From Bacteroidia bacterium (GTDB lineage: Bacteria; Bacteroidota; Bacteroidia; Chitinophagales; Saprospiraceae): a stretch of DNA of 49,504 nt. Under the pieces are notes generated by a model that made no database searches, was not told the DNA's origin, and worked only from the letters and a program-made list of their open reading frames with translations. Made by a program: the position numbers and the translations under genes. The stretch is taken from positions 1-49,504 of the forward strand of contig JAUIEA010000011.1 in NCBI GenBank assembly GCA_030429045.1, written 5' to 3'. Of this stretch, positions 16,020 to 49,353 are shown piece by piece (the first letter of the stretch is position 1; each line of letters opens with the position of its first letter).

Positions 16020-18128
16020 ATGGGATTGATGAATACCATCCGGAAGAACCCAATCATTCTTCTGCTCTCTATCGGCCTGGCCATGGCCGGTTTCATCTTG
16101 ATGGACATGATGACTTCCGGAGGCCCGCAGTCTGCAAATCAATTCACACTTGGCAAGGTTAATGGCCAACGAATTGACTGGCAGATCTTTAGCGATACAG
16201 AAAATCGATTGTTCGGAAATAGCGGCGCTGACGTTTTCCAACGCAAACAGCAGCTCTGGAACTATTTTGTCGAAAAGATCCTCATTGATGACATCGCCGA
16301 TGACCTCGGCCTGGGTGTCGGAAAAGAAGAGCTGGTCGATCTTGAGTTCGGAACCAATCTGAGCCCGATCATTCAGCGGAACTTCATGGATCCCAATACC
16401 CGTCAGGTAGATCGACAGCAGCTCAACAGCCTGCGACAGGCCATTGACGCTGACCAGCTCCCACCTGACCTGCGCACCTTCTGGGCCGAACAGGAAAAAG
16501 AGATCGTCAAGGACCGCTTGCAATCCAAGATCGTCACCATGGTGGCCAAAGGCATGTATTTGCCAACCTGGCAGGCAGAGATGATGAACAAGGACCGCTC
16601 CACCCAAAGTGAGGTGGCGTATGTCCGCATCCCCTTCGATGTTGTCAGTGACAGCGAAGTCACCGTGACCGACGATGACCTCAATGCCTACCTGAAGCAA
16701 CACCGCGCCAAATTCTATCAGGACGAAGAGTCCCGGGCGATCAGCTTTGTCAGTTTTGATGTCAAACCGACCGCAGAAGACTCTGCAGCCATCTACAATG
16801 ATCTGGCAGAATTGGTTGGCCCCTTCAGGGAGTCCACCAACGACACCCTCTTCATTGAGAACAACTATGGCTTCATGGATGGAGCCTACTACCAGGATGA
16901 CTTCTTTACGACCCCGGAGGCTGACACCCTGTTCAGCATGCCCGCAGGATCTGTATACGGACCCTTTGTCGAAAACGGACAATACCTGGTGGTAAAAATT
17001 CTAGATCGGATGATCGTTCCCGATTCAGTTCGGACACGTCACATCCTGATCCAGGCCAAAGATCCGGCGGCCATCGAACAGGCTCAAACCACGATCGACA
17101 GTCTGAAAGGCCTCGCTGAATCAGGCACCGTCTCGTTTGACACCCTGGCACTGCAATATGGCCAGGATGCCAGCCGGACCACAGGTGGCGACCTCGGATT
17201 TGCCGCTCAGGGAACCATGGTCAAGCCCTTTAATGACCTGATCTTCTATCAGGCCACTCCGGGCAAATACTACACTGTAACGACGCAGTTTGGAGTCCAC
17301 CTGGTACAGGTCACCGATCGCAAGTTCATCGAAAACAAGGTCGGCCTTCGCATGGGTATCCTCAATGAGGCCATCATCCCATCCGAAACCACCCAGAAAC
17401 GCGCCTACCAAAAGGCCCTTGAAGCGGTCAGTCAGTATCGCGACCTGGCCAGCCTGGAACAGGCCTCAACCGAAAACAGTGATCTGGTCGTCCAGACAAC
17501 CGCTCCATTCCGTGCAAACGATTTTGCCCTCGGTGTCCTCGGACAAGGATCTTCCATTCGGGATATCATCCGCTGGGCCTTCAAGCAGGGTTCTGTGGGC
17601 AATATCTCTCCGGAGGTATATGCCTTTGAAGATGAACAGGCTGGATATACCAACAGGTATGTGGTCGCCGGCCTCTCTTCCATCCGCCCCGCAGGGGATG
17701 CAACACTCGAGTCAGCTCGTACCGACCTGGAGCTTCTGGTGCGCAACCAGGCCAAGGGAAAGAAGATCGCTGCTGACATCGGATCGAATACAGATCTGAA
17801 CGGCCTGGCCCAAACCTATTCCACCAATGTGGACACGGCCAAGACGATGAGTTTTGCCAGCTCCTTCCTGACCGGGATCGGCAGTGAACCCAAGCTGATC
17901 GGCACAGTAGTGACCCTGGAAGTCGGTTCCACCTCGGCACCTATCGTAGGCAATAACGGCGTATACGTCGCCAAGGTGATCAGCCGTCCCGGAGATGTAC
18001 CACCAGCGAACGTGGCCTTGATGCGGCAGTCGTTGAAGATGCAAAAGTCGAATTCGATCGGATTCCGATTTGTGGAATCCCTCCGCAAGGGAGCCAAGTT
18101 GGAAGACAACCGATCCAACTTCTTCTAA
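16020..18128 (+). CDS. PpiD-like periplasmic peptidyl-prolyl isomerase/foldase
   Basis: 702 aa. N-terminal membrane anchor (about 11-30, PIILLLSIGLAMAGFILMDM), then a SurA_N/PpiD-like chaperone part (about 40-330) and a parvulin domain (about 338-437: VRTRHILIQAK, LALQYGQDASRTTGGDLGF, FGVHLVQVTDRK). The rest (about 440-700) is a second chaperone-like region. The layout matches PpiD, which helps secreted proteins leaving the Sec channel. Compared with the three other foldases at 25.8-30.1 kb, this one is membrane-anchored. It stands alone, with a strong terminator after it. Confidence 0.87.
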   Translation: MGLMNTIRKNPIILLLSIGLAMAGFILMDMMTSGGPQSANQFTLGKVNGQRIDWQIFSDTENRLFGNSGADVFQRKQQLWNYFVEKILIDDIADDLGLGVGKEELVDLEFGTNLSPIIQRNFMDPNTRQVDRQQLNSLRQAIDADQLPPDLRTFWAEQEKEIVKDRLQSKIVTMVAKGMYLPTWQAEMMNKDRSTQSEVAYVRIPFDVVSDSEVTVTDDDLNAYLKQHRAKFYQDEESRAISFVSFDVKPTAEDSAAIYNDLAELVGPFRESTNDTLFIENNYGFMDGAYYQDDFFTTPEADTLFSMPAGSVYGPFVENGQYLVVKILDRMIVPDSVRTRHILIQAKDPAAIEQAQTTIDSLKGLAESGTVSFDTLALQYGQDASRTTGGDLGFAAQGTMVKPFNDLIFYQATPGKYYTVTTQFGVHLVQVTDRKFIENKVGLRMGILNEAIIPSETTQKRAYQKALEAVSQYRDLASLEQASTENSDLVVQTTAPFRANDFALGVLGQGSSIRDIIRWAFKQGSVGNISPEVYAFEDEQAGYTNRYVVAGLSSIRPAGDATLESARTDLELLVRNQAKGKKIAADIGSNTDLNGLAQTYSTNVDTAKTMSFASSFLTGIGSEPKLIGTVVTLEVGSTSAPIVGNNGVYVAKVISRPGDVPPANVALMRQSLKMQKSNSIGFRFVESLRKGAKLEDNRSNFF

Positions 18129-19845: not shown

Positions 19846-19992
19846 GAGCTTTTGCAAGATCCCTGTTATTTGATTACCAATTCCCGTTTCGGATCGTAAT
19901 TCATCAAAATTGACCGGATATAGCCAAAAACCGAGGCTTTCAGGCAGCGAATGCTGGTCACATTCCGTTAAACGCAGTACCTTGTCTATGGT

Positions 19993-20544
19993 ATGGATGT
20001 TTCTCTTCATCTCTCTGTAGACGAGCCCGATCTGATCGCAGCTTGTGTCCGGCAAGAGCGCTGGGCGCAACAGCGGGTGTATGAGGAATATTATGGTAAA
20101 ATGATGGGCGTATGCCTTCGTTATGCCAGTCAGGAAGACGAAGCAAAGGACATGTTGCATGAAGGCTTCATCAAAGTCTTCCGCTATATCTCCAGGTATA
20201 AACCCGGAACCTCCCTCCAGGCCTGGATCCGGACCATTGTCGTCAACACCTGCATTGATCACTATCGGCGAAACCATCGCAGACGGACAGACGACCTGGA
20301 TCAGATCCAGAGCCTGTCCAACGGAGATACCTCTGCCCTGGATATGATCTCTGCCGAGGAGATCCTGATCCTGGTCAGAAATTTATCTCCCGCCTATCGA
20401 ATGGTATTCAACCTCTATATCCTTGAAGGATATTCACATAAAGAGATTGCGGAAATGCTGGATATCACTGAAAGCACTTCCCGATCAAATCTGGTGAAAG
20501 CCCGATTGAAATTACAGGATGCGATCAAAAAGAAATGGCATTGA
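19993..20544 (+). CDS. ECF-type RNA polymerase sigma factor
   Basis: 183 aa sigma-70 family, region 2 and region 4 only. Region 2 spans about 12-95 (VYEEYYGKMMGVCLRYASQ, EAKDMLHEGFIKVFRYISRY, LQAWIRTIVVNTCIDHYRR). Region 4 spans about 125-180 (LSPAYRMVFNLYILEGYSHK, EIAEMLDITESTSRSNLVKA). Its stop codon overlaps the start of the next gene by one base, so the two are translationally coupled, the usual layout of an ECF sigma and its anti-sigma partner. A partial -7 match (TACCTTGT, 19978) lies 8 bases before the ATG; autoregulation by its own sigma is also possible. Confidence 0.93.
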   Translation: MDVSLHLSVDEPDLIAACVRQERWAQQRVYEEYYGKMMGVCLRYASQEDEAKDMLHEGFIKVFRYISRYKPGTSLQAWIRTIVVNTCIDHYRRNHRRRTDDLDQIQSLSNGDTSALDMISAEEILILVRNLSPAYRMVFNLYILEGYSHKEIAEMLDITESTSRSNLVKARLKLQDAIKKKWH

Positions 20545-21950
20545 TGAAGAACTTCGACCGCTGGATAAAAAGTGAATTGGACCCATATGAGGCATCCCGC
20601 CCGGATGCTGCCTGGGATCAGTTTGCGTCCAGGTTGGATCAGGCCGAATCCCAGGATGCCGAGAACGCCCAGTTTGACCAGGCTCTAAAGAACAAACTCG
20701 AACAGGTTGAGGCACCCTATGAACCCTCGCACTGGCAACACTTCCTGCAAACCCTGGAACGCCAGGCTCGTCAGCGGGCAGACATGCTTCGATTGAAAGT
20801 GGTTGAGGCCGCCCTGTTCATGCTCATCCTGCTCACCCTGTGGAACCTGAATGCCCCCGATTACCGGCCGGATACATCCCACCTTCCGATGGCCAGCCTG
20901 TCTGAGAGCCAGCCGGGACCGGTCGAAGGTCCGGCTCCTTCTCCAGAAGGGATGGCCTCCGCGCAGACGACCGAGGGTCTTTCTGTTCTTCCTCCAAACC
21001 ATGGATCATCATCCGTATCTGAGCCAACTTTTACCCCGGTATCTCCGGTGCAGACGGTCACCAGCACCCTCCGACTCGCCGTACATCAACCGGTCCAAGA
21101 AATGGTCAATAGCCGGAATCCAAGCATAGTTTCTCCAGGCCCGGCATTCCCCTCAATACCGGATCACCCTGTTGAGCAGCCTGTCCCGTTACTGGACAAT
21201 GTTCATCCACAACTTGACCCATTACCCGTCCTGGTCACCTCACTTCCTGTTTCTACCCGATCCAATATTCGCCACCGGCTGAGTATGGCCATCAACGGCG
21301 ACATGAACTATGTCATGACCCCTTACGATCAACTCCTGGTCAAGAAGGGATATGACCAGCTGGTTTCCGGATATGGCGCCTCTCTCGGGTATTCCCTGGA
21401 GGGCCCTCAATGGGGACTGCGGTCGACCGTGACCTATCACCGTAAATACTATCTCCCCAAACCCTATACGGAGGTTTTTGATGGGGATATCCAGCGAGGT
21501 TATTTCAGTGAGACACTGCGCGACATCGAATTGAACATGATCAGCCTTTCAGTTCTCGGCCAACGGACGTTTTCACGCGTCAACCGTTGGCATACCTACG
21601 GGTTGATCGGAGGTTCTGCACATCTGGCCTTTCAGGCCAATTACGACCGAAAGCAATCCTATACACCAGGTGCGGATCCGAATCCGAGTGGCGTGACACC
21701 CGAGCCCCTGACGGAATCCAAAACCAGTCAGAAGCGGTATGCCGATGGTCTCTTTGAAGGTGGGAACCTGGCTGAGAATTCCTATTTGACCATTGACGTG
21801 GGCGTGGGTTTGGAATGGCACCTGGCCGGACGAACCAGTCTCTTTATGGAGCCGATCTACCAACACAACCCCTTCCAGAAGTCCCTGGGACCCAACAAAG
21901 ACAGGATCAATACCTTAAGCATCTCCCTGGGTGCAAGAGTCAGTCTCTAG
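20544..21950 (+). CDS. Putative dual-membrane-spanning anti-sigma factor (cytoplasmic domain, TM helix, linker, OM beta-barrel)
   Basis: 468 aa from the ATG that overlaps the sigma stop (TGATG); an ATG at 20535 is less likely. Residues 1-80 are charged and helical with two related motifs (AAWDQFASRLDQAE near 22-35 and SHWQHFLQTLERQ near 62-74). Residues about 86-102 (VVEAALFMLILLTLW) are the only transmembrane helix. Residues about 105-240 are Pro/Ser-rich and probably disordered. Residues about 245-468 show alternating strands and end in LSISLGARVSL, as an outer-membrane beta-barrel does. There is no signal peptide, so the N-terminus should stay in the cytoplasm next to the sigma factor. This matches the Dma architecture reported from Bacteroides. 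Signal and target genes are unknown. Confidence 0.75.
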   Translation: MKNFDRWIKSELDPYEASRPDAAWDQFASRLDQAESQDAENAQFDQALKNKLEQVEAPYEPSHWQHFLQTLERQARQRADMLRLKVVEAALFMLILLTLWNLNAPDYRPDTSHLPMASLSESQPGPVEGPAPSPEGMASAQTTEGLSVLPPNHGSSSVSEPTFTPVSPVQTVTSTLRLAVHQPVQEMVNSRNPSIVSPGPAFPSIPDHPVEQPVPLLDNVHPQLDPLPVLVTSLPVSTRSNIRHRLSMAINGDMNYVMTPYDQLLVKKGYDQLVSGYGASLGYSLEGPQWGLRSTVTYHRKYYLPKPYTEVFDGDIQRGYFSETLRDIELNMISLSVLGQRTFSRVNRWHTYGLIGGSAHLAFQANYDRKQSYTPGADPNPSGVTPEPLTESKTSQKRYADGLFEGGNLAENSYLTIDVGVGLEWHLAGRTSLFMEPIYQHNPFQKSLGPNKDRINTLSISLGARVSL

Positions 21951-21991: not shown

Positions 21992-23266
21992 ATGAAGGTC
22001 CTCCTGCTAGGCGGTGGCGGGCGAGAACATGCCCTCGCCTGGAAGATTTCTTCCAGTCCATCCTGTGAGCAACTCTATATCGCACCCGGAAATCCGGGCA
22101 CCGCTCAATGCGGTCAGAACCTGGATATCAATCCGCTGGATTTTCAGTCTGTGGCCGCCTTTTGCCGGGAAGCACAGATCGACCTCCTCCTCGTCGGGCC
22201 GGAAGAACCCCTGGTCAAAGGCGTTACCGATGTATTGAGAAAGGACCCCGCCATCCAACATCTGATCATTTGTGGTCCGGATGCTGCCGGTGCCCGACTG
22301 GAGGGCAGCAAAGCCTTCGCCAAGGCCTTCATGTCTGAATTTCAGATCCCGACTGCGCGATATGGTGAATTCGATCGGGACCAGGCGGAGGAGGCCATCC
22401 GCTTCCTGGATACCTTCACGCCCCCCTATGTCATCAAGGCCGACGGACTGGCAGCAGGAAAGGGCGTCCTGATCTGCGATCGAAAGGAAGAGGCTGCCGA
22501 AGCCATCACAGGCATGTTTTCCGGCGAATTTGGCGAAGCCGGACACACCATCGTCCTGGAAGAGTTTCTGGATGGGATCGAGTTTTCGGTATTTGCCCTG
22601 ACGGATGGAAAGAACGCCTGCATCCTCCCTGTCGCCAAGGATTATAAACGTATCGGTGAAGGGGACACCGGACCCAACACAGGCGGGATGGGCGCTGTCA
22701 GTCCCGTTCCATTTGTCGATGAGGCCCTTATGGAAAAGGTCCGCACCCGAATTGTCACGCCGACAGTCCGGGGGTTGTCATCGCGCGGGATCGTATACCA
22801 GGGATTTCTGTTTATCGGCCTGATCCTGGTGAAGGGTGAGCCTTATGTCATCGAGTATAACTGCCGGATGGGCGATCCCGAAACTGAAGTGGTGATGCCC
22901 CGTCTGTCCACGGACTTCCTGGAACTGATGACGGCGATGCACGAACAGCGACTGGACCAGGTGAAGATCGAAATGGACCCCCGTACGGCCCTGACCGTGA
23001 TGCTGGTTTCGGGCGGGTATCCCGGATCCTACCGGAAGGGAATGCCCATTGCCGGAATTCCGGAAGAACTCGCCCCGGATACCCTGGTCTTTCATGCAGG
23101 TACGCGTCACGACGCCGACCAACTGGTGACCAATGGCGGGCGGGTACTGGCCTGTACGGCTTATGGACACGATCTCGAACAAGCCCGAAAAGGGGCCTAT
23201 GAACTGGCCCGAAAGATCAGCTTCGAGGAGATGAACTATCGGCGGGATATCGGAATGGATCTCTGA
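21992..23266 (+). CDS. purD: Phosphoribosylamine-glycine ligase
   Basis: 424 aa, full length. ATP-grasp enzyme of de novo purine synthesis making GAR from phosphoribosylamine and glycine. Signatures: MKVLLLGGGGREHALAWK, YIAPGNPGTAQ, LLVGPEEPLVKGV, ATP-grasp segments YVIKADGLAAGKGV and VLEEFLDGIEFSVFALTDG, and NCRMGDPETEVVMPRL (metal/ATP site). Its TGA shares one base with the next ATG, so purD and murF/alr are translationally coupled. Confidence 0.97.
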   Translation: MKVLLLGGGGREHALAWKISSSPSCEQLYIAPGNPGTAQCGQNLDINPLDFQSVAAFCREAQIDLLLVGPEEPLVKGVTDVLRKDPAIQHLIICGPDAAGARLEGSKAFAKAFMSEFQIPTARYGEFDRDQAEEAIRFLDTFTPPYVIKADGLAAGKGVLICDRKEEAAEAITGMFSGEFGEAGHTIVLEEFLDGIEFSVFALTDGKNACILPVAKDYKRIGEGDTGPNTGGMGAVSPVPFVDEALMEKVRTRIVTPTVRGLSSRGIVYQGFLFIGLILVKGEPYVIEYNCRMGDPETEVVMPRLSTDFLELMTAMHEQRLDQVKIEMDPRTALTVMLVSGGYPGSYRKGMPIAGIPEELAPDTLVFHAGTRHDADQLVTNGGRVLACTAYGHDLEQARKGAYELARKISFEEMNYRRDIGMDL

Positions 23267-25722
23267 TGGAACGGGTACTGGACAGCGGACATATTTCCAA
23301 TGCTCAGTGGTTTCCCTCCGAGCCGGAAAGAGCGGTATTCAGCCGGGTCTCGACTGATAGCCGCACCTTGTTCCAACCGGCCACAACGCTGTTCTTTTGC
23401 CTCCGCGGCCCCAGACATAATGGCCATCTCTATCAACAGGAGGCCTGGGAAAAGGGCGTCCGGCACTTTGTCGTCGACCACATCCCCGAAAGCCCTCTAC
23501 CAGACACCTGCTACCTCCTGGTTGAGAACACCCTGGATGCGTTGCAACAACTGGCAAAGGGCCATCGGGAGCAGTTCCGTTACCCTGTCATAGGTATTAC
23601 GGGCAGCAATGGGAAGACCACGGTAAAGGAATGGCTCTACCTCGTACTCAAGGATGATGAGGGGATCATCCGCAGCCCCCGCAGTTTTAACAGCCAGATC
23701 GGTGTACCGCTTTCGCTGACCATGATGGGTCCGGAACACCAGCTCGCCCTCATCGAGGCGGGCATTTCCCGGCCCGGTGAAATGGCCATCCTGGAAACAC
23801 TGATCCAGCCGGATATAGGCGTCCTGACCAGCCTGGGAAGTGCCCATGACGAGGGGTTTCCGGACCGGGAAATGAAGCTCAGAGAAAAACTGCTGCTGTT
23901 CCGGAACAGCAGCACATTGGTGGTTCCCCTGTCCATCGTGAAGGCGTATCCCGCCTCTTTTTCAACCCTCTCAGCCCGGATGGTCACCTGGTCAGATACC
24001 GAACCTGCTGATCTGCAGATCCTCCACAAACGAGACCTGGAACATCGCATGGAAGTCACCTTCCGCTATCAGGAGCAGGAAGGCAGGGTCATACTGCCTC
24101 AAAATGACGAGGCTTCCTTCGCCAACGCCATGACCTGCCTGCTCACCGCCCTGATCTATGGAAAAGACGTGACCCGGATCTGTGATCGGATGCGCAGCCT
24201 GTCCGGTTTATCCATGCGACTCGAATCGAAAGAAGGGTGGAATGGCAATCTGATCATCAATGACTACTACAATGCTGATCTTGAAGGGGTTCGCATCGCG
24301 TTATCCTTTCTCAATCAACGACGCGGCAAACGCTCTGCCTGGATCATTCTCTCCGATCTGGACGATACCGGGCTCCGAACCTTTGATCTCGTGCAACGCA
24401 TTGCTGCTCTTCTTCGGGATATACCCTTCCAACGGCTCTCCTGCATTGGCACACAGGGTCCTGAACTGATCCGGGAATTGGGCAACCCCCTGGAGGCCAC
24501 CTGGTATCCGGATGTGCGATCTTTTCTCGACAACAACGATTTCCAATCCGTGGGAGACACCGCCATCCTGATCAAAGGGGCCAGGCGGTTTGCCCTGGAG
24601 GAGATCAGCCGAAAACTGACCCGATTTGTCCATCGGACCCGGCTTGAGGTCAATCTGACGGCACTGTCCAACAACCTGAAGGCTTATGCGGAGGGGCTTC
24701 AACCTGCCACCAGGATCATGGTGATGGTCAAAGCCTCCGCCTATGGAAGTGGCAGCGCAGATATCGCCCGGTTGCTGGATTTCCAACGTGTGCATTACCT
24801 GGGAGTCGCCTATGCGGATGAAGGGGTCGAATTGCGCCAGGCCGGTCTGCAACTCCCCATCATGGTGATGAATCCGGATGAATCCAGTTTCGCCAGCATG
24901 ATCCAGCATCGACTGGAACCGGAGATCCATTCACTGGATCAACTCCGTCAATTCCTGCATTTTCTGTCCCCTGCCGATCCCGTCACTCCCATTCACCTGA
25001 AGGTAGAGACCGGTATGCACCGCCTGGGATTCGAAGAGGACGAACTCAGCAGCCTGGTCGAGTTACTCGCCGGCCAGGAACAGGTCTTTATCTCCTCCTG
25101 TTTTACCCACCTGTCAGCCAGTGAACAACCTGCGCACGATCCCTTTACCCATCAACAGGCAGCCCGATTTATTCGATTTACGGAGCACTTGAATCAGGCG
25201 CTGGGATACACGCCAATGCGGCATATCCTGAATTCGGCAGGTATTACACGATTCCCGGAATATCAGTTTGACATGGTTCGTCTGGGTATTGGCCTGTACG
25301 GACTGGACCATGATCCATCGAGCCCGTTTCAACCGGCCCTGACCCTGAAAACACATATTGCCCGCATCCATCGCGTTCCAGCCGGTGATTCAGTGGGGTA
25401 TGGCCGACTGGGCATAGCATCATATGATCGAACCATTGCAACCTTGGGCATTGGCTATGCCGATGGCTTGCTCCGGTTGGCAGGGGAGGGCCGGTTTTCG
25501 GTCCGTATCAATGGTCAGGCAGCCCCGACGGTCGGAGCGATCTGTATGGATATGTGTATGGTCGACATCAGCCATATTCCGCGGGTCCAGGTCGGTGATG
25601 AAGCCATTCTTTTTGATGATCAATACCCGATCACCCATTTGGCCCAAAGCTTGCAAACCATCCCCTATGAGGTTCTGACCAATATTTCATCCCGTGTGAA
25701 CAGGATCTACTATCACGAATAG
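23266..25722 (+). CDS. murF-alr: Bifunctional MurF (tripeptide:D-Ala-D-Ala ligase)/alanine racemase
   Basis: 818 aa fusion of two consecutive supply steps for cell-wall precursors. The MurF part (about 1-450) has the P-loop GITGSNGKTTVKEW at 110-123, the SFNSQIGVPLSL segment, and an EMKLREKLLLF region with the lysine that is carbamylated in Mur ligases. The Alr part (about 455-818) has the PLP lysine Lys489 in VMVKASAYGSG, the second-base Tyr712 in SVGYGRLG, and GIGYADGLLR. The fused form is common in Bacteroidota. The alanine racemase supplies D-Ala, MurF attaches D-Ala-D-Ala to the UDP-MurNAc-tripeptide. Cytoplasmic. It follows purD with a one-base overlap. Confidence 0.95.
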   Translation: MERVLDSGHISNAQWFPSEPERAVFSRVSTDSRTLFQPATTLFFCLRGPRHNGHLYQQEAWEKGVRHFVVDHIPESPLPDTCYLLVENTLDALQQLAKGHREQFRYPVIGITGSNGKTTVKEWLYLVLKDDEGIIRSPRSFNSQIGVPLSLTMMGPEHQLALIEAGISRPGEMAILETLIQPDIGVLTSLGSAHDEGFPDREMKLREKLLLFRNSSTLVVPLSIVKAYPASFSTLSARMVTWSDTEPADLQILHKRDLEHRMEVTFRYQEQEGRVILPQNDEASFANAMTCLLTALIYGKDVTRICDRMRSLSGLSMRLESKEGWNGNLIINDYYNADLEGVRIALSFLNQRRGKRSAWIILSDLDDTGLRTFDLVQRIAALLRDIPFQRLSCIGTQGPELIRELGNPLEATWYPDVRSFLDNNDFQSVGDTAILIKGARRFALEEISRKLTRFVHRTRLEVNLTALSNNLKAYAEGLQPATRIMVMVKASAYGSGSADIARLLDFQRVHYLGVAYADEGVELRQAGLQLPIMVMNPDESSFASMIQHRLEPEIHSLDQLRQFLHFLSPADPVTPIHLKVETGMHRLGFEEDELSSLVELLAGQEQVFISSCFTHLSASEQPAHDPFTHQQAARFIRFTEHLNQALGYTPMRHILNSAGITRFPEYQFDMVRLGIGLYGLDHDPSSPFQPALTLKTHIARIHRVPAGDSVGYGRLGIASYDRTIATLGIGYADGLLRLAGEGRFSVRINGQAAPTVGAICMDMCMVDISHIPRVQVGDEAILFDDQYPITHLAQSLQTIPYEVLTNISSRVNRIYYHE

Positions 25723-25838: not shown

Positions 25839-27821
25839 ATGAAACACCTTCGGAATGCCCTTTTAGGGCTCCTTTTTCTCGGCCCAATGGTCAGCCTGCA
25901 GGCGCAAAGCCAGGAGGACCCCATTCTCTTCAGTGTCGACAATGATCAGGTTCCCGTCAGTGAATTCGTGTATATCTATACCAAGACGAATGGTCTGAAA
26001 GCTGATTTCGGCAGGCCCTCCCTCTCTGAATACCTGGACTTGTACAAGAAGTTCAAGATGAAAGTACGCAGGGCCAGGGAAATGAAGCTGGATACCATCC
26101 CCTCTCTGAAAAATGAACTGGCCGGATATCGCAAGCAACTGGCGAGTAATTATCTGATCGATAAGGAAGTGACCAACCAATTGATCCAGGAAGCCTATGA
26201 GCGAATCCAGGAAGATGTCCGGGTCAGTCACATTCTGGTCAAGTTGGAGGCCGATGCCAGCCCGGAGGACACGGTCATCGCCCGAAAGAAGATCGTGGAA
26301 GCTAAGAAAGCCCTTGCTGCAGGCAAGTCCTTTCTGGAAGTGGCCCGGATGTACAGTGAAGATGAGTCTACCGCTACCAAAGGCGGTGATCTCGGCTTTT
26401 TCACCGCTCTGTTTCCATCCGGTTTTTATGCCCTTGAAACGGCTGCCTACGAGACACCCAAGGGGGAGGTCAGTGATATCATCCGGACCAAATTGGGTTA
26501 CCACCTGGTCAGGGTCACAGATCGTCGCCCGGCACGCGGAGAGATCGAAGTGGCCCACATCCTGGTCCGCAAGATCAAGGGAGACAATTCTGCAGATGCC
26601 CGCACCAAGATCGACAGCATCTACCATGCCCTGAAGAACGGAGCTGACTTTGATGAACTGGCCAGAGAACTTTCCGAGGACAAGCTCTCTGCAGCCAAGG
26701 GTGGCAACATCGGATTCTTCGGGATAAACCGTTATGAATCTTCTTTTGAAGATGCTGCTTTTGGTCTCTTTGCAGACGGTGACTACACCAAGCCCTTCGA
26801 GACGTCCAGTGGCTATCATATCGTCAAACGGATCAGCAAGCGGGGTATTGACTCAGAAGACCTGGCCAAGCGGCGCCTGGAACCATTGGTCAAGCGGAAT
26901 GAGCGATTCGAGTTGGCCAAGACCAGCATGATCCAGAAGATCAAGTCCGAGATCGGAGTAGAGGAGCAGAATGATGTGTTGATCAAGTACACCCAGATGC
27001 AGAATGATTCGTTTTACACCTTCCTGTGGCGGCCCTCTTCCGGCAAGTTGGGGTCTAAGACCATCCTCAAGCTGGGCAAACACAAGGATGTTTCCGTCGC
27101 GGAATTTGAAGACTTCCTGTTGAAAAATGCCGGCAAACGGGTCAATCAAAAGCGCACCAACGATCTGGTATCGGGAATCCGGGTCTTGTTCGACGAATTC
27201 GTCAAGGATGAGTGCATCAAATTTGAGGAGTCCCAACTGGAAGACAAGTATCCTGATTTTAAAGCATTGATGCGGGAATACGAGGAGGGCATCCTCCTGT
27301 TCGAAGCCACCAAGCGCATCGTCTGGGATCGGGCGGGCCAGGATACGATCGGCCTGGAAGCCTTCTTTGCCAATGAGGTCAAGGACAAATATCAGTGGGG
27401 AGAGCGGGCCCGGGTGACCTACTATTCCCTGAAAAGCAGTGATACTGAATTGCTGGAGGATGTACGGAAATTCGCAGATGGACAGCCCAGTGACAAGGTC
27501 CTCAAGAAATTCAACAAGGGCGATGAGCCGATCCTGAGCGCTCGGGAACTCATCTATGAACACGGTAAAAACCCGGCCGTAGACGAGATGGTCTGGGCCC
27601 CAGGTACGCTTTCCTACAATGAAGAGGATAAGCGATCCAAGGGCTGGAACTTCATGAAGATCGAAGAGATCCTCCCGCCGACGCCAAAAACACTGGATGA
27701 GGCTCGTGGCTATGTGATCGCAGATTATCAGGACAAGCTGGAGAAGGACTGGATCCACGAGTTGAAAGAGCGATATCAGGTGAAAGTCAACCAGCAGGTC
27801 TTTGAATCCCTGATCAAGTGA
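25839..27821 (+). CDS. Periplasmic peptidyl-prolyl isomerase with two parvulin domains
   Basis: 660 aa with signal peptide (MKHLRNALLGLLFLGPMVSLQAQ). After a chaperone-like segment with KKFKMKVRRAREMKLDTIPS, two parvulin domains follow: about 128-232 (VRVSHILVKLEAD, TKGGDLGFF, LGYHLVRVTDRR) and about 235-336 (EVAHILVRKIKG, AKGGNIGFFG, SSGYHIVKRISKR). The remaining 320 residues are a C-terminal chaperone-like region. It belongs to the SurA/PpiD class that keeps outer-membrane proteins soluble in transit. First of three co-transcribed foldase genes; overlaps the next by 4 bases (GTGA). Confidence 0.9.
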   Translation: MKHLRNALLGLLFLGPMVSLQAQSQEDPILFSVDNDQVPVSEFVYIYTKTNGLKADFGRPSLSEYLDLYKKFKMKVRRAREMKLDTIPSLKNELAGYRKQLASNYLIDKEVTNQLIQEAYERIQEDVRVSHILVKLEADASPEDTVIARKKIVEAKKALAAGKSFLEVARMYSEDESTATKGGDLGFFTALFPSGFYALETAAYETPKGEVSDIIRTKLGYHLVRVTDRRPARGEIEVAHILVRKIKGDNSADARTKIDSIYHALKNGADFDELARELSEDKLSAAKGGNIGFFGINRYESSFEDAAFGLFADGDYTKPFETSSGYHIVKRISKRGIDSEDLAKRRLEPLVKRNERFELAKTSMIQKIKSEIGVEEQNDVLIKYTQMQNDSFYTFLWRPSSGKLGSKTILKLGKHKDVSVAEFEDFLLKNAGKRVNQKRTNDLVSGIRVLFDEFVKDECIKFEESQLEDKYPDFKALMREYEEGILLFEATKRIVWDRAGQDTIGLEAFFANEVKDKYQWGERARVTYYSLKSSDTELLEDVRKFADGQPSDKVLKKFNKGDEPILSARELIYEHGKNPAVDEMVWAPGTLSYNEEDKRSKGWNFMKIEEILPPTPKTLDEARGYVIADYQDKLEKDWIHELKERYQVKVNQQVFESLIK

Positions 27822-28717: not shown

Positions 28718-30103
28718 ATGACTATGTCCATTATGTGTAGAATATCCCTTTCGTTTTTCCTCATCCTCGGTTTGGTTGTCACACTCCAGGCCCAGGAAAG
28801 AAAATTGATTGACAAGGTCGCCGGAACGGTCGGGGCCGAGATCATCCTCCTCTCAGATATTGAGTCACAGCTCGCCTATATGCAGGCCCAGAGAGGTGCT
28901 GCACCTCCGAATGCCCGTTGTATGATCCTCGAGAACCTGCTCGGTCAAAACCTGTTGTTACACCAGGCCCGGGTCGATTCGATCCAGATCACAGATGATG
29001 AGGTAGAAGCCCAGATCTCCGCACGGGTGGATCGAATCCTTGCACTGATGAACAATGATCACCAGCAGTTTGAGGATTATTACGGAAAAACGGTGTCAGA
29101 GATCCGGGGCGAGTTTCGCGAACCCATCCAAAACCAGATCCTGATCGACCGCATGCAGAACAAGGTGTTGTCTTCCATCACGATCACTCCAGCAGAAGTC
29201 AGGTCCTTTTTCGAGCGGGTACCCAAGGATAGCCTCCCTTACTTCAATTCGGAGGTGGAAATGGCTGAGATCATCTATTACCCCAAGGTCAATGAAGAAC
29301 AAAAGCAGAATGCCTATCTCCAGATCTCACGCATTAAAAAGTTGATCACGGAGGAGAAAAAGGATTTTGCAGCGGTCGCATCGGAATATTCTGACGATGT
29401 GGGATCTGCCCGGGTTGGTGGCGATTTGGGATGGCAAAAGCGAGGTACGTTCGTGCCCGAGTTTGAGTCCGTTGCCTACAACCTCGAACCTGGTGAGATC
29501 TCTGATATTTTTGAAACCCCATTCGGATACCATATCGTCCAATTGCTGGAGCGACGGGGCAACCTGCTGCATACGCGGCACATCCTGATCACCCCGAAGA
29601 TCGAACAATCCGATCTGGATCTGGCGATCCACGTTCTCGATTCATTGCGCAAGGCCATCTCTGTTGACTCCCTGCTCACCTTCGAAGAAGCCGTAAAGGC
29701 GCATGGGGATGAGAACACTACCAGTTTCAATAATGGTGGACGCATGCTCAACCCGCAATCCGGAAATACCTTCTTTGAGATCGGAGACCTGGATCACCGG
29801 TTGTTCTTCGTCATCGACACCCTGCAGGTGGGCCAGATCAGCGCTCCCATACCCAACCAGGATCCCACCGGCAAGGTCAGTTTTCAAATGATCAAGCTGC
29901 TGTCACGTTCGCGTCCCCACAAGGCCAGTTTGAAAACGGATTACTCCAGGATCAGAGAGGCCGCGCTTGCGGAAAAGAAGAATGCACATCTCGACAAATG
30001 GATCCAGGCACATATCGCCAGGACCTATATCGAGGTAGACCCGGCCTATCATACCTGTCCGTTACTGGACCGATGGATCACCCCTTCCCATCCCCGGCCC
30101 TGA
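28718..30103 (+). CDS. surA: SurA-like periplasmic chaperone/peptidyl-prolyl isomerase
   Basis: 461 aa with signal peptide ending VVTLQAQ. It follows SurA: N-terminal chaperone part (about 28-170: [35 protein letters not shown]), parvulin domain 1 (about 179-282: [36 protein letters not shown]), a second, more divergent parvulin domain (about 283-400, starting [10 protein letters not shown]), and a C-terminal helix. SurA delivers unfolded beta-barrels to the BAM complex. Last gene of the operon. Three ATGs within 15 bases make the exact start uncertain. Confidence 0.9.
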
Positions 30104-48690: not shown

Positions 48691-49353
48691 ATGGTTGATG
48701 GTCCCGGGGTACGCACGTTGAGATACTTCTACGAATATTATACGCTGGATCCATTCCTCTTTTATTCCTGGATTTTGATTATCACCTTTTCGATTTGTTT
48801 GCATGAGTATGCGCATGCGCAAGTCGCTTTGTGGAAAGGTGACGATACAGCAGCCCGAATGGGCCACCTGACATTAAACCCGCTCGTGCAGATGGGATGG
48901 ATGTCGCTTGTTTTACTGGCCGTAGTGGGGATTGCCTGGGGTGCCGTTCCGGTAGATCGTCGTAACTTGAAGGGAAGATCGGCTATGGCGCAGGTTGCTT
49001 TTGCCGGTCCGTTTGCGAACCTGATCTTGGCGGTGCTGTTTGCCGTGCTGTTTGCTGTTGCCTATAAGGCCGGCCTGTCTCCAGAGGTTCAGCGGTTTCT
49101 TGAACTGGGATCCATGGCTAACGGCGTACTGTTCCTGTTTAACATGCTGCCGTTTCCCATGTTTGACGGGTGGACGGTGTTGTCTCTTTTTGTTCCGCAG
49201 ATGGAGCGCATCGATGCTCGACAACTCTCGGGATTTTCATGGATCGCGATCCTCGTCATCTGGACGACGGGAATATTTGGTTTCATTTGGAATGCCGGAT
49301 CCGGCATCGGTGAGTTTGTGTTCCGACTGACGCTGTCCGTGCTCGGTGGTTAG
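48691..49353 (+). CDS. M50 site-2-protease-like membrane metallopeptidase
   Basis: 220 aa, shorter than the M50 protein at 5-6 kb and of the minimal type without CBS or PDZ domains. HEYAH at 38-42 and NMLPFPMFDGW near 151-161 provide the zinc site. Hydrophobic helices at about 24-38, 70-85, 100-127, 141-155 and 183-200. An alternative start is TTG 48718. Because it follows the chimeric breakpoint it probably belongs to the second genome. Function in that organism unknown. Confidence 0.85.
   Translation: MVDGPGVRTLRYFYEYYTLDPFLFYSWILIITFSICLHEYAHAQVALWKGDDTAARMGHLTLNPLVQMGWMSLVLLAVVGIAWGAVPVDRRNLKGRSAMAQVAFAGPFANLILAVLFAVLFAVAYKAGLSPEVQRFLELGSMANGVLFLFNMLPFPMFDGWTVLSLFVPQMERIDARQLSGFSWIAILVIWTTGIFGFIWNAGSGIGEFVFRLTLSVLGG

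Follow-up and report, generated by a model that had tools for sequence, protein, structure and literature searches.

RESULTS

An ECF sigma gene overlapped by a second gene

We analyzed a stretch of 49,504 nucleotides from a Bacteroidia bacterium, called the window below, in which two overlapping genes lie behind a predicted promoter (Table 1). The first ORF codes for an ECF sigma factor, with scores of 57.8 and 54.4 bits against Pfam Sigma70_r2 and Sigma70_r4_2 (cut-offs 24 and 25.7) and of 96.5 bits against the NCBIfam sigma70-ECF model (cut-off 42.9). The protein consists of regions 2 and 4 alone, and the other models over cut-off are overlapping ones for sigma region 4 or ECF factors. The second ORF has two candidate start codons. 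The ATG at 20535 lies inside the sigma ORF and gives a 10-nt overlap, and the ATG at 20544 has one base in common with the sigma stop codon. Three of four relatives from the same genus start at the residue matching ATG 20544, with a 4-nt overlap (MRQFD, MKDFD, and MTFDD; MKNFD in the window), and the closest genus relative carries both ATGs, as the window does. The true start of the second gene may be ATG 20544. The preliminary description had placed both genes correctly, and the overlap that it reported between an ECF sigma gene and the next gene is confirmed with either start.

Table 1 Features of the sigma-dma locus in the window
Feature	Coordinates	Strand	Basis
Predicted sigma-dma operon promoter, AGGCAGC (-35) ... 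CGTT (-10), 17-nt spacer; 23 nt separate its end from the sigma start	19942..19969	+	Word pairs, two-box model, PWM
ECF sigma factor, 183 aa, regions 2 and 4	19993..20544	+	Pfam and NCBIfam
Dma-type anti-sigma candidate, 471 aa (468 aa from ATG 20544)	20535..21950	+	AlphaFold2 model; family matches
W-unit 1, residues 7-36, helix pair, WDQF	20553..20642	+	Unit HMM 31.8 bits; helices 2-18, 25-56
W-unit 2, membrane-proximal, residues 47-76, WQHF	20673..20762	+	Unit HMM 33.2 bits over 47-72
Transmembrane helix, residues 84-102, invariant K88/E91 near the cytoplasmic end	20784..20840	+	Hydropathy, alignment, AlphaFold2 helix 64-105
Disordered Pro/Ser-rich periplasmic tether, residues 103-245	20841..21269	+	pLDDT <50 for 110-241; length kept, sequence not
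8-strand beta-barrel, residues 246-471, predicted outer-membrane domain	21270..21947	+	AlphaFold2, PDB neighbors
Conserved island, predicted surface loop 3, residues 405-415 GLFEGGNLAEN	21747..21779	+	G405, G410, N415 each 74/77
Conserved island, predicted surface loop 4 and start of strand 8, residues 452-457 GPNKDR	21888..21905	+	G452 72/77

Conservation of the gene pair

A search with the 471-residue protein (E ≤ 0.01) gave matches in 34 of the 36 other genomes of the family, some covering one end of the protein only. As a single sequence it matched none of 23 genomes from other families of the order at the same threshold, and none of the viral contigs searched. A profile built from alignment A2 (see below) found matches (E ≤ 0.001) in 100 of 148 genomes from the order, and many of these matches cover a part of the profile only. 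We also scanned named genomes with a sigma alignment, A3, which returned at least 559 relatives, and kept the best 80; these 80 loci and the genomes carrying G handles overlap, and the counts are not additive. The groups named among the best 80 of at least 559 are Saprospiraceae, Lewinellaceae, Chitinophagales, and genera of theirs, or carry a wider Bacteroidota label, and three of the 80 are cultured strains (Phaeodactylibacter luteus, Membranihabitans marinus, and Flavilitoribacter nigricans). The top sigma relative among the matches listed, that of Saprospiraceae bacterium Tobar13m-G19, is 96% identical.

All of these 80 sigma genes, the best of at least 559, are adjoined by a Dma-like ORF with at least one W motif, followed by a hydrophobic stretch and a long remainder. 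This ORF was taken as the longest one starting between -44 and +197 nt from the sigma stop, and 4 of the 80 run off their contig. Gene neighborhoods were compared across 20 regions, none longer than 20 kb: four from the genus (one of them a 6.8-kb contig) and 16 from elsewhere. The gene order of the window is kept in the four genus regions, and in the 16 others only sigma and Dma stay together; among these, an unrelated TPR match lies further off in L064, and the Dma gene of L066 was missed by tblastn. Clustering of ORFs found sigma and Dma in 16 of the 16 non-genus regions. The next cluster, which we take to be a DNA topoisomerase/gyrase A-like gene, was present in seven of them, and two more clusters in five each. 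The preliminary description had suggested that the system would work without a separate sensor, which fits the finding that no third gene family is common to more than 7 of the 16 regions outside the genus.

Flanking SurA-like and TlpA-like genes were considered as a functional clue and discarded: their order is conserved within the genus (four regions) but in 0 of the 16 others, and a one-mismatch motif scan of the window, given below, yielded no site besides the sigma promoter and an intragenic one. Three SurA/PpiC-type peptidyl-prolyl isomerase genes lie near the pair, one at 16020-18128 identified by Pfam and two, at 25839-27821 and 28718-30103, by NCBIfam below cut-off; such genes occur in three of the four genus regions, the fourth being a short contig, but the 16 other regions have none. 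The window also contains a single 818-aa ORF combining a Mur ligase middle domain with alanine racemase domains (23266-25722) and, near its end, a gene for an M50-family peptidase (48691-49353; Pfam Peptidase_M50, 45.7 bits).

Predicted fold and topology of the second protein

The second protein was modeled with AlphaFold2 from the 26-row alignment A2, composed of the window protein and 25 relatives. The model has three N-terminal helices (residues 2-18, 25-56, and 64-105) of moderate confidence, with block means of 64 to 79 up to residue 70. The C-terminal barrel reaches block-mean pLDDT values mostly above 90, its count of eight strands treating residues 312-318 as part of a loop hairpin. 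When residues 241-471 were compared with the PDB, the best row was OmpA (a model entry; Z 17.6, 168 residues aligned, rmsd 2.5), and the crystal structures of NspA (Z 16.2, 155 aligned, rmsd 3.0) and OmpW (Z 15.4, 168 aligned, rmsd 2.6) were also among the top rows. Pfam barrel models scored under their cut-offs on the window protein (15.7 and 14.6 bits versus 28.7 and 27), and the relative from F. nigricans exceeds the cut-off for OMP_b-brl_2 (41.1 versus 27). Insertion of the barrel into the outer membrane is predicted from this model. Since both barrel ends are on the same side and the tether would be in the periplasm, the long loops should face outwards. Loops 1 to 3 are on average more variable than the strands. 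The conserved residues of loops 3 and 4 represent a possible sensing site.

Hydropathy peaks at the transmembrane helix, within the third helix of the model. Because this hydrophobic stretch is far from the N terminus, a cleavable signal peptide of the ordinary kind is unlikely, as judged by hydropathy alone. All 26 rows of the alignment have K88 and E91, and by a loose test a K/R-x-x-E motif is present near the start of the transmembrane segment in 77 of 77 complete proteins (the window protein and 76 of the relatives next to the best 80 of at least 559 sigma genes). In 69 of the 77, the 15 residues that precede this segment are richer in Lys and Arg than the 15 that follow it, with means of 3.6 and 1.3, respectively. 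At the sequence level, an N-in topology is supported for the Dma-like protein.

The segment that connects the membrane helix to the barrel contains 26 Pro in 143 residues. In the 77 complete proteins, the distance between these two domains ranges from 115 to 220 residues, with a median of 162 and a coefficient of variation of 0.12; the cytoplasmic part varies from 42 to 199 residues, with a coefficient of 0.32. Sequence identity between linkers is 10.5%, versus 9.5% after shuffling, 29.0% for the barrels, and 66.2% for the sigma factors. Conservation of length without conservation of sequence is the behavior expected of a tether that crosses the periplasm, and supports such a role. Taking approximately 0.35 nm for each residue of an extended chain, a linker of 115 residues would cover some 40 nm, which suffices to bridge a periplasm 20 to 30 nm wide.

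Alternatively, the protein might operate in two pieces, the linker being cut during biogenesis to leave the barrel in the outer membrane and the anti-sigma part in the inner membrane as separate chains, with signaling by a RIP-like proteolytic route. Predicted disorder would make the linker easy to cut, and regulated proteolysis is the usual route of ECF factor release. However, a linker that is always cut need not keep at least 115 residues, and yet its length is conserved; moreover, with identities at the level of shuffled sequences no conserved cleavage site is visible at that level. We thus regard the two-piece arrangement as improbable and favor a chain that stays continuous between the two membranes.

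The preliminary description had anticipated these elements: a single transmembrane helix with no N-terminal signal peptide, a long Pro/Ser-rich linker, and a beta-barrel within residues 245-468, for which it had proposed structure prediction as the check. The model and the hydropathy profile agree with each of these, and the eight predicted strands are where the barrel was expected. It had likened the whole to the dual-membrane-spanning anti-sigma factors (Dma) reported in Bacteroides, and this comparison is upheld by the fold prediction, the topology, the tether of kept length without sequence conservation, and the pairing with sigma in 80 of 80 relatives (the best of at least 559). Its occurrence in a distant lineage of Bacteroidota also stands, in a genome of the Saprospiraceae type with matches across the family.

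Tandem units in the cytoplasmic part

The two W-xx-F motifs noticed in the preliminary description, W27-F30 and W67-F70, turned out to belong to tandem copies of one unit, with a consensus of roughly FDxIIKxKLExLEAPYDPxHWxLLEQRLDE. W67 is invariant in the 26-sequence alignment, and the units match no Pfam or NCBIfam model. Among 81 proteins (the window protein and those paired with the best 80 of at least 559 sigma genes), a unit HMM detected one copy in 6, two in 44, three in 25, four in 4, and five in 2; a simpler motif count gave one to six W motifs in 77 proteins. L097, a protein from a different family within the order, carries four units; its second and third copies differ very little, so arrays can grow by duplication. 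Identities between first and last units (means of 0.252 to 0.297, 55 proteins) did not reveal which unit is ancestral. In the four-unit protein of F. nigricans, helix pairs were predicted with block pLDDT values of 47 to 65 up to residue 140, and at this low confidence the model lends weak support. A single-unit profile matched 89 of 296 Bacteroidota genomes (E ≤ 0.01), among them 52 of 57 genomes that share the class but belong to other orders and 22 of 223 from other classes (rows counted by hand).

The genome of the window has 17 Sigma70_r4_2 loci. At six of them, the window included, the sigma gene is followed by a long Dma-like protein (L032, L033, L036, L040, L041, and L043), the ORFs of L033 and L040 running past the analyzed piece. 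The five further pairs each show, by eye, a single unit-like stretch. Among these five, Pfam barrel models exceed cut-off in L041 only; L033 falls slightly short of it, L040 and L043 match weakly, and L032 has no match. At L034 and L037, sigma is followed by a short protein with a unit-like stretch and a transmembrane segment, that of L037 carrying a W without the exact W-xx-[FLMI] motif.

These pairs bear on the function of the second protein, whose role as an inhibitor is inferred. It might instead be an activator of sigma, a membrane anchor, or merely a co-expressed outer-membrane protein. Nevertheless, 8 of the 17 loci continue with an N-terminal unit-like stretch and a transmembrane segment, whether or not a long C-terminal part comes after it. 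This pattern suits a module that binds sigma better than it suits passive co-expression, and a protein of the same layout acts as an inhibitor in Phocaeicola vulgatus, according to the accessible part of PMC9308784. We therefore consider a non-inhibitory role very unlikely and treat the protein as an anti-sigma candidate.

The two longest profile-matched ORFs were examined as natural sigma-Dma fusions and rejected, as they are unit and transmembrane proteins fused to Plug/VWA domains. In two genomes from another family of the order (L197:939-3623, minus strand, and L198:3289-5742, plus strand), an ORF that is sigma-like by eye precedes a protein of 895 or 818 aa, respectively, with one W-unit, a transmembrane segment, a linker, a TonB Plug domain, VWA domains, and a YfbK C-terminal domain, and without a barrel.

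A conserved motif upstream of the sigma gene

The word pair GCAGC-N17-CGTT is present upstream of 65 of 81 sigma genes (the window and the best 80 of at least 559), and the largest word-pair count in five shuffles was 5. A two-box model with a spacer of 16 or 17 nt recognized 77 of the 81, 73 of them with 17 nt, a count that is not independent since the model was trained on 68 of these genes. None of 272 other ORFs from the 20-kb regions and the window scored with it. The promoter of the window reached a PWM score of 23.6 when the window was left out of training. Scanning the window with one mismatch allowed yielded this promoter and one intragenic site (2 matches, 1.07 expected).

Over the entire genome, the exact motif with a 17-nt spacer occurs 17 times, versus 18 for a reversed control. 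Two of these matches are intergenic, one before the sigma gene and one before a deacetylase gene; the other 15 are inside ORFs, some of which may be spurious. A narrower pattern gave 5 matches versus 3 for the control in this genome. In eight further genomes, a narrower pattern gave 30 versus 8, and 9 of the 30 fall between ORFs, two of them before sigma genes and none before a deacetylase gene. With a still narrower pattern, 20 other genomes gave 20 matches versus 5. Nine of the 20 are intergenic, including five upstream of sigma genes and two upstream of deacetylase genes. The last two are in G031 and G032, which lay outside the first deacetylase test described below. Another match falls within the 3′ end of a 519-aa ORF, with a small gene following 34 nt further on (L315 in the genome of the window, L239, L241, and L243); it is kept there in all four genus genomes scanned, which coding constraint could explain.

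Candidate target genes

The deacetylase of the window's genome scores 91.5 bits against Pfam Polysacc_deac_1 (cut-off 23.1), and NCBIfam places it near PdaB, NodB, peptidoglycan deacetylases, and related models, none of which reaches cut-off. The motif before this gene was first noticed in G000, G002, and G167, in the latter inside a 108-aa ORF. Deacetylase matches in 38 of 40 genomes were reduced to 30 loci, of which 29 were scored, L313 not being placed. The motif precedes the NodB-type deacetylase gene in 13 of 22 family genomes, the window's own included, and is missing in 9; without G000 and G002, the count is 11 of 20. In other families of the order, it was found upstream of this gene in 0 of 7 genomes.

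Behind one intergenic match is a gene for a 266-aa lipoprotein, related to another motif-preceded lipoprotein (BLASTP E 2e-15, single pair). This family of lipoproteins (L352 to L372, about 260 aa) occurs in 20 of the family's 36 other genomes and in 1 of 23 outside it; the gene was not found in the genome of the window at E ≤ 1e-6, and the two members scanned have no Pfam match over cut-off. GCAGC-N16/17-CGTT lies upstream of 19 of 21 lipoprotein loci, 14 of them with 16 nt, the shorter spacer having been admitted after inspection of these upstream regions; with 17 nt alone the count is 5 of 21. Without the two loci that prompted the search, it is 17 of 19.

The motif was identified by conservation, in a genome with 17 Sigma70_r4_2 loci, and GCAGC-N16/17-CGTT might instead be recognized by a different sigma factor, as its promoter, or by an activator, which would place the operon under outside control. 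This is unlikely, however: ECF factors of Flavobacterium psychrophilum have been assigned a motif whose -10 region carries a CGT box (available passages of PMC9723704), and the motif of the window goes along with the window-type sigma gene (77 of 81 as above), did not turn up close to seven further sigma genes in the window's genome (17-nt model, best score 8.2), and is lacking before the deacetylase gene in the other families. We thus favor recognition by the sigma factor of the pair, whose predicted output would be envelope modification together with autoregulation. The preliminary description had suggested envelope or vesicle genes as possible targets. Envelope genes are retained, given the motifs before the deacetylase and lipoprotein genes; vesicle genes found no support in this analysis.

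Other genes preceded by the motif are an outer-membrane barrel gene in G004 (L244:1578-2231, plus strand; Pfam OMP_b-brl_2; motif at 50 nt) and a 205-aa gene without Pfam match in G078 (L339:1555-2169, plus strand; motif at 26 nt), both possible genome-specific targets. Intergenic sites before a 393-aa gene, two genes that are CarboxypepD-like by eye, and a 180-aa gene (L260, L267, L269, and L275, from other genomes of the family) may mark real targets or be chance matches.

DISCUSSION

We propose, as the probable reading, that the two genes form a signaling unit of the Dma kind. The tandem W-units would retain the ECF sigma factor at the inner membrane. From there, the same chain is predicted to continue as a single helix and some 140 disordered residues spanning the periplasm, and to end as the eight-stranded barrel in the outer membrane. 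Changes at the barrel, caused by a ligand at the conserved surface-loop islands, by outer-membrane damage, or by failed barrel assembly, would loosen or cut the chain and free sigma. Failed assembly is an attractive signal because the barrel itself would be a client of the barrel-assembly machinery. The freed sigma factor would transcribe its own operon from the GCAGC-N17-CGTT motif and, through the same motif, the NodB-type deacetylase gene and, in relatives, the lipoprotein gene. New Dma protein made from the same operon would then close the loop.

More tentatively, the number of units, from one to five, could set how many sigma molecules a single outer-membrane event controls, or how tightly, in a system guarding an envelope regulon across Saprospiraceae; we hold this to be possible rather than probable. 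If true, it would describe a dual-membrane regulator of tunable valence, with an envelope-modifying regulon and its own promoter code across that family.

How sensing at the outer membrane is relayed to transcription is a central question of envelope biology, to which a single chain through both membranes would be a very direct answer. The presence of the pair in nearly all family genomes searched, including cultured strains, makes the idea of one chain in two membranes testable outside the gut. The constraint on tether length, a repeat array that can be varied, and the predicted promoter and target genes offer handles for such tests.

In cell-surface signaling of the FecR/FecA type, an event at the outer membrane controls an ECF factor, as proposed here. 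FecR uses a separate outer-membrane receptor, whereas in the window the barrel and the anti-sigma part are in one chain. The founding paper on Dma is reportedly that of Pardue in PNAS in 2024. The domain organization of Dma2 of Bacteroides thetaiotaomicron is described in the accessible part of PMC13088901; as with Dma1/Das1 and Dma2/Das2, the ECF sigma gene of the window adjoins a gene for an anti-sigma part, a transmembrane helix, a disordered tether, and a C-terminal barrel. According to the same passages, loss of Dma1 or Dma2 raises vesicle output in B. thetaiotaomicron, whereas the output predicted for the pair of the window is the deacetylase, with the lipoprotein in relatives. The anti-sigma part of the window protein is a tandem of two units, with one to five in its relatives, which may set it apart from the Bacteroides Dma proteins.

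EcfO of Bacteroides fragilis is said, after Ndamukong in 2013, to have a role in oxidative stress, unlike the output predicted for the window, and the likeness between the two pairs is one of description. The EcfO pair is named as a similar sigma/anti-sigma pair in the available passages of PMC9308784, which deal with the M0N98_03761/03760 pair of P. vulgatus, of the same layout as that of the window. In those passages, loss of the anti-sigma factor turns on a protective regulon, and an envelope-stressing toxin raises expression of the sigma gene 33-fold, an induction that fits the self-promoter motif of the window. The P. vulgatus response lengthens the O-antigen and gives partial protection against the toxin (PMC9308784, same part); both inducer and output are predictions in the case of the window.

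No paper joining "saprospir" with "anti-sigma factor" and "ECF sigma" was found in open-license full text, and the passages of PMC12596196 and PMC12045153 that cite Dma are silent on repeats. In the accessible parts of PMC13088901 and PMC9308784, the Dma kind is studied in gut Bacteroidales. The kind itself is already known; the present locus shares its layout and would add tandem repeats to its sigma-facing end, along with a promoter motif of defined sequence and a regulon predicted to serve the envelope.
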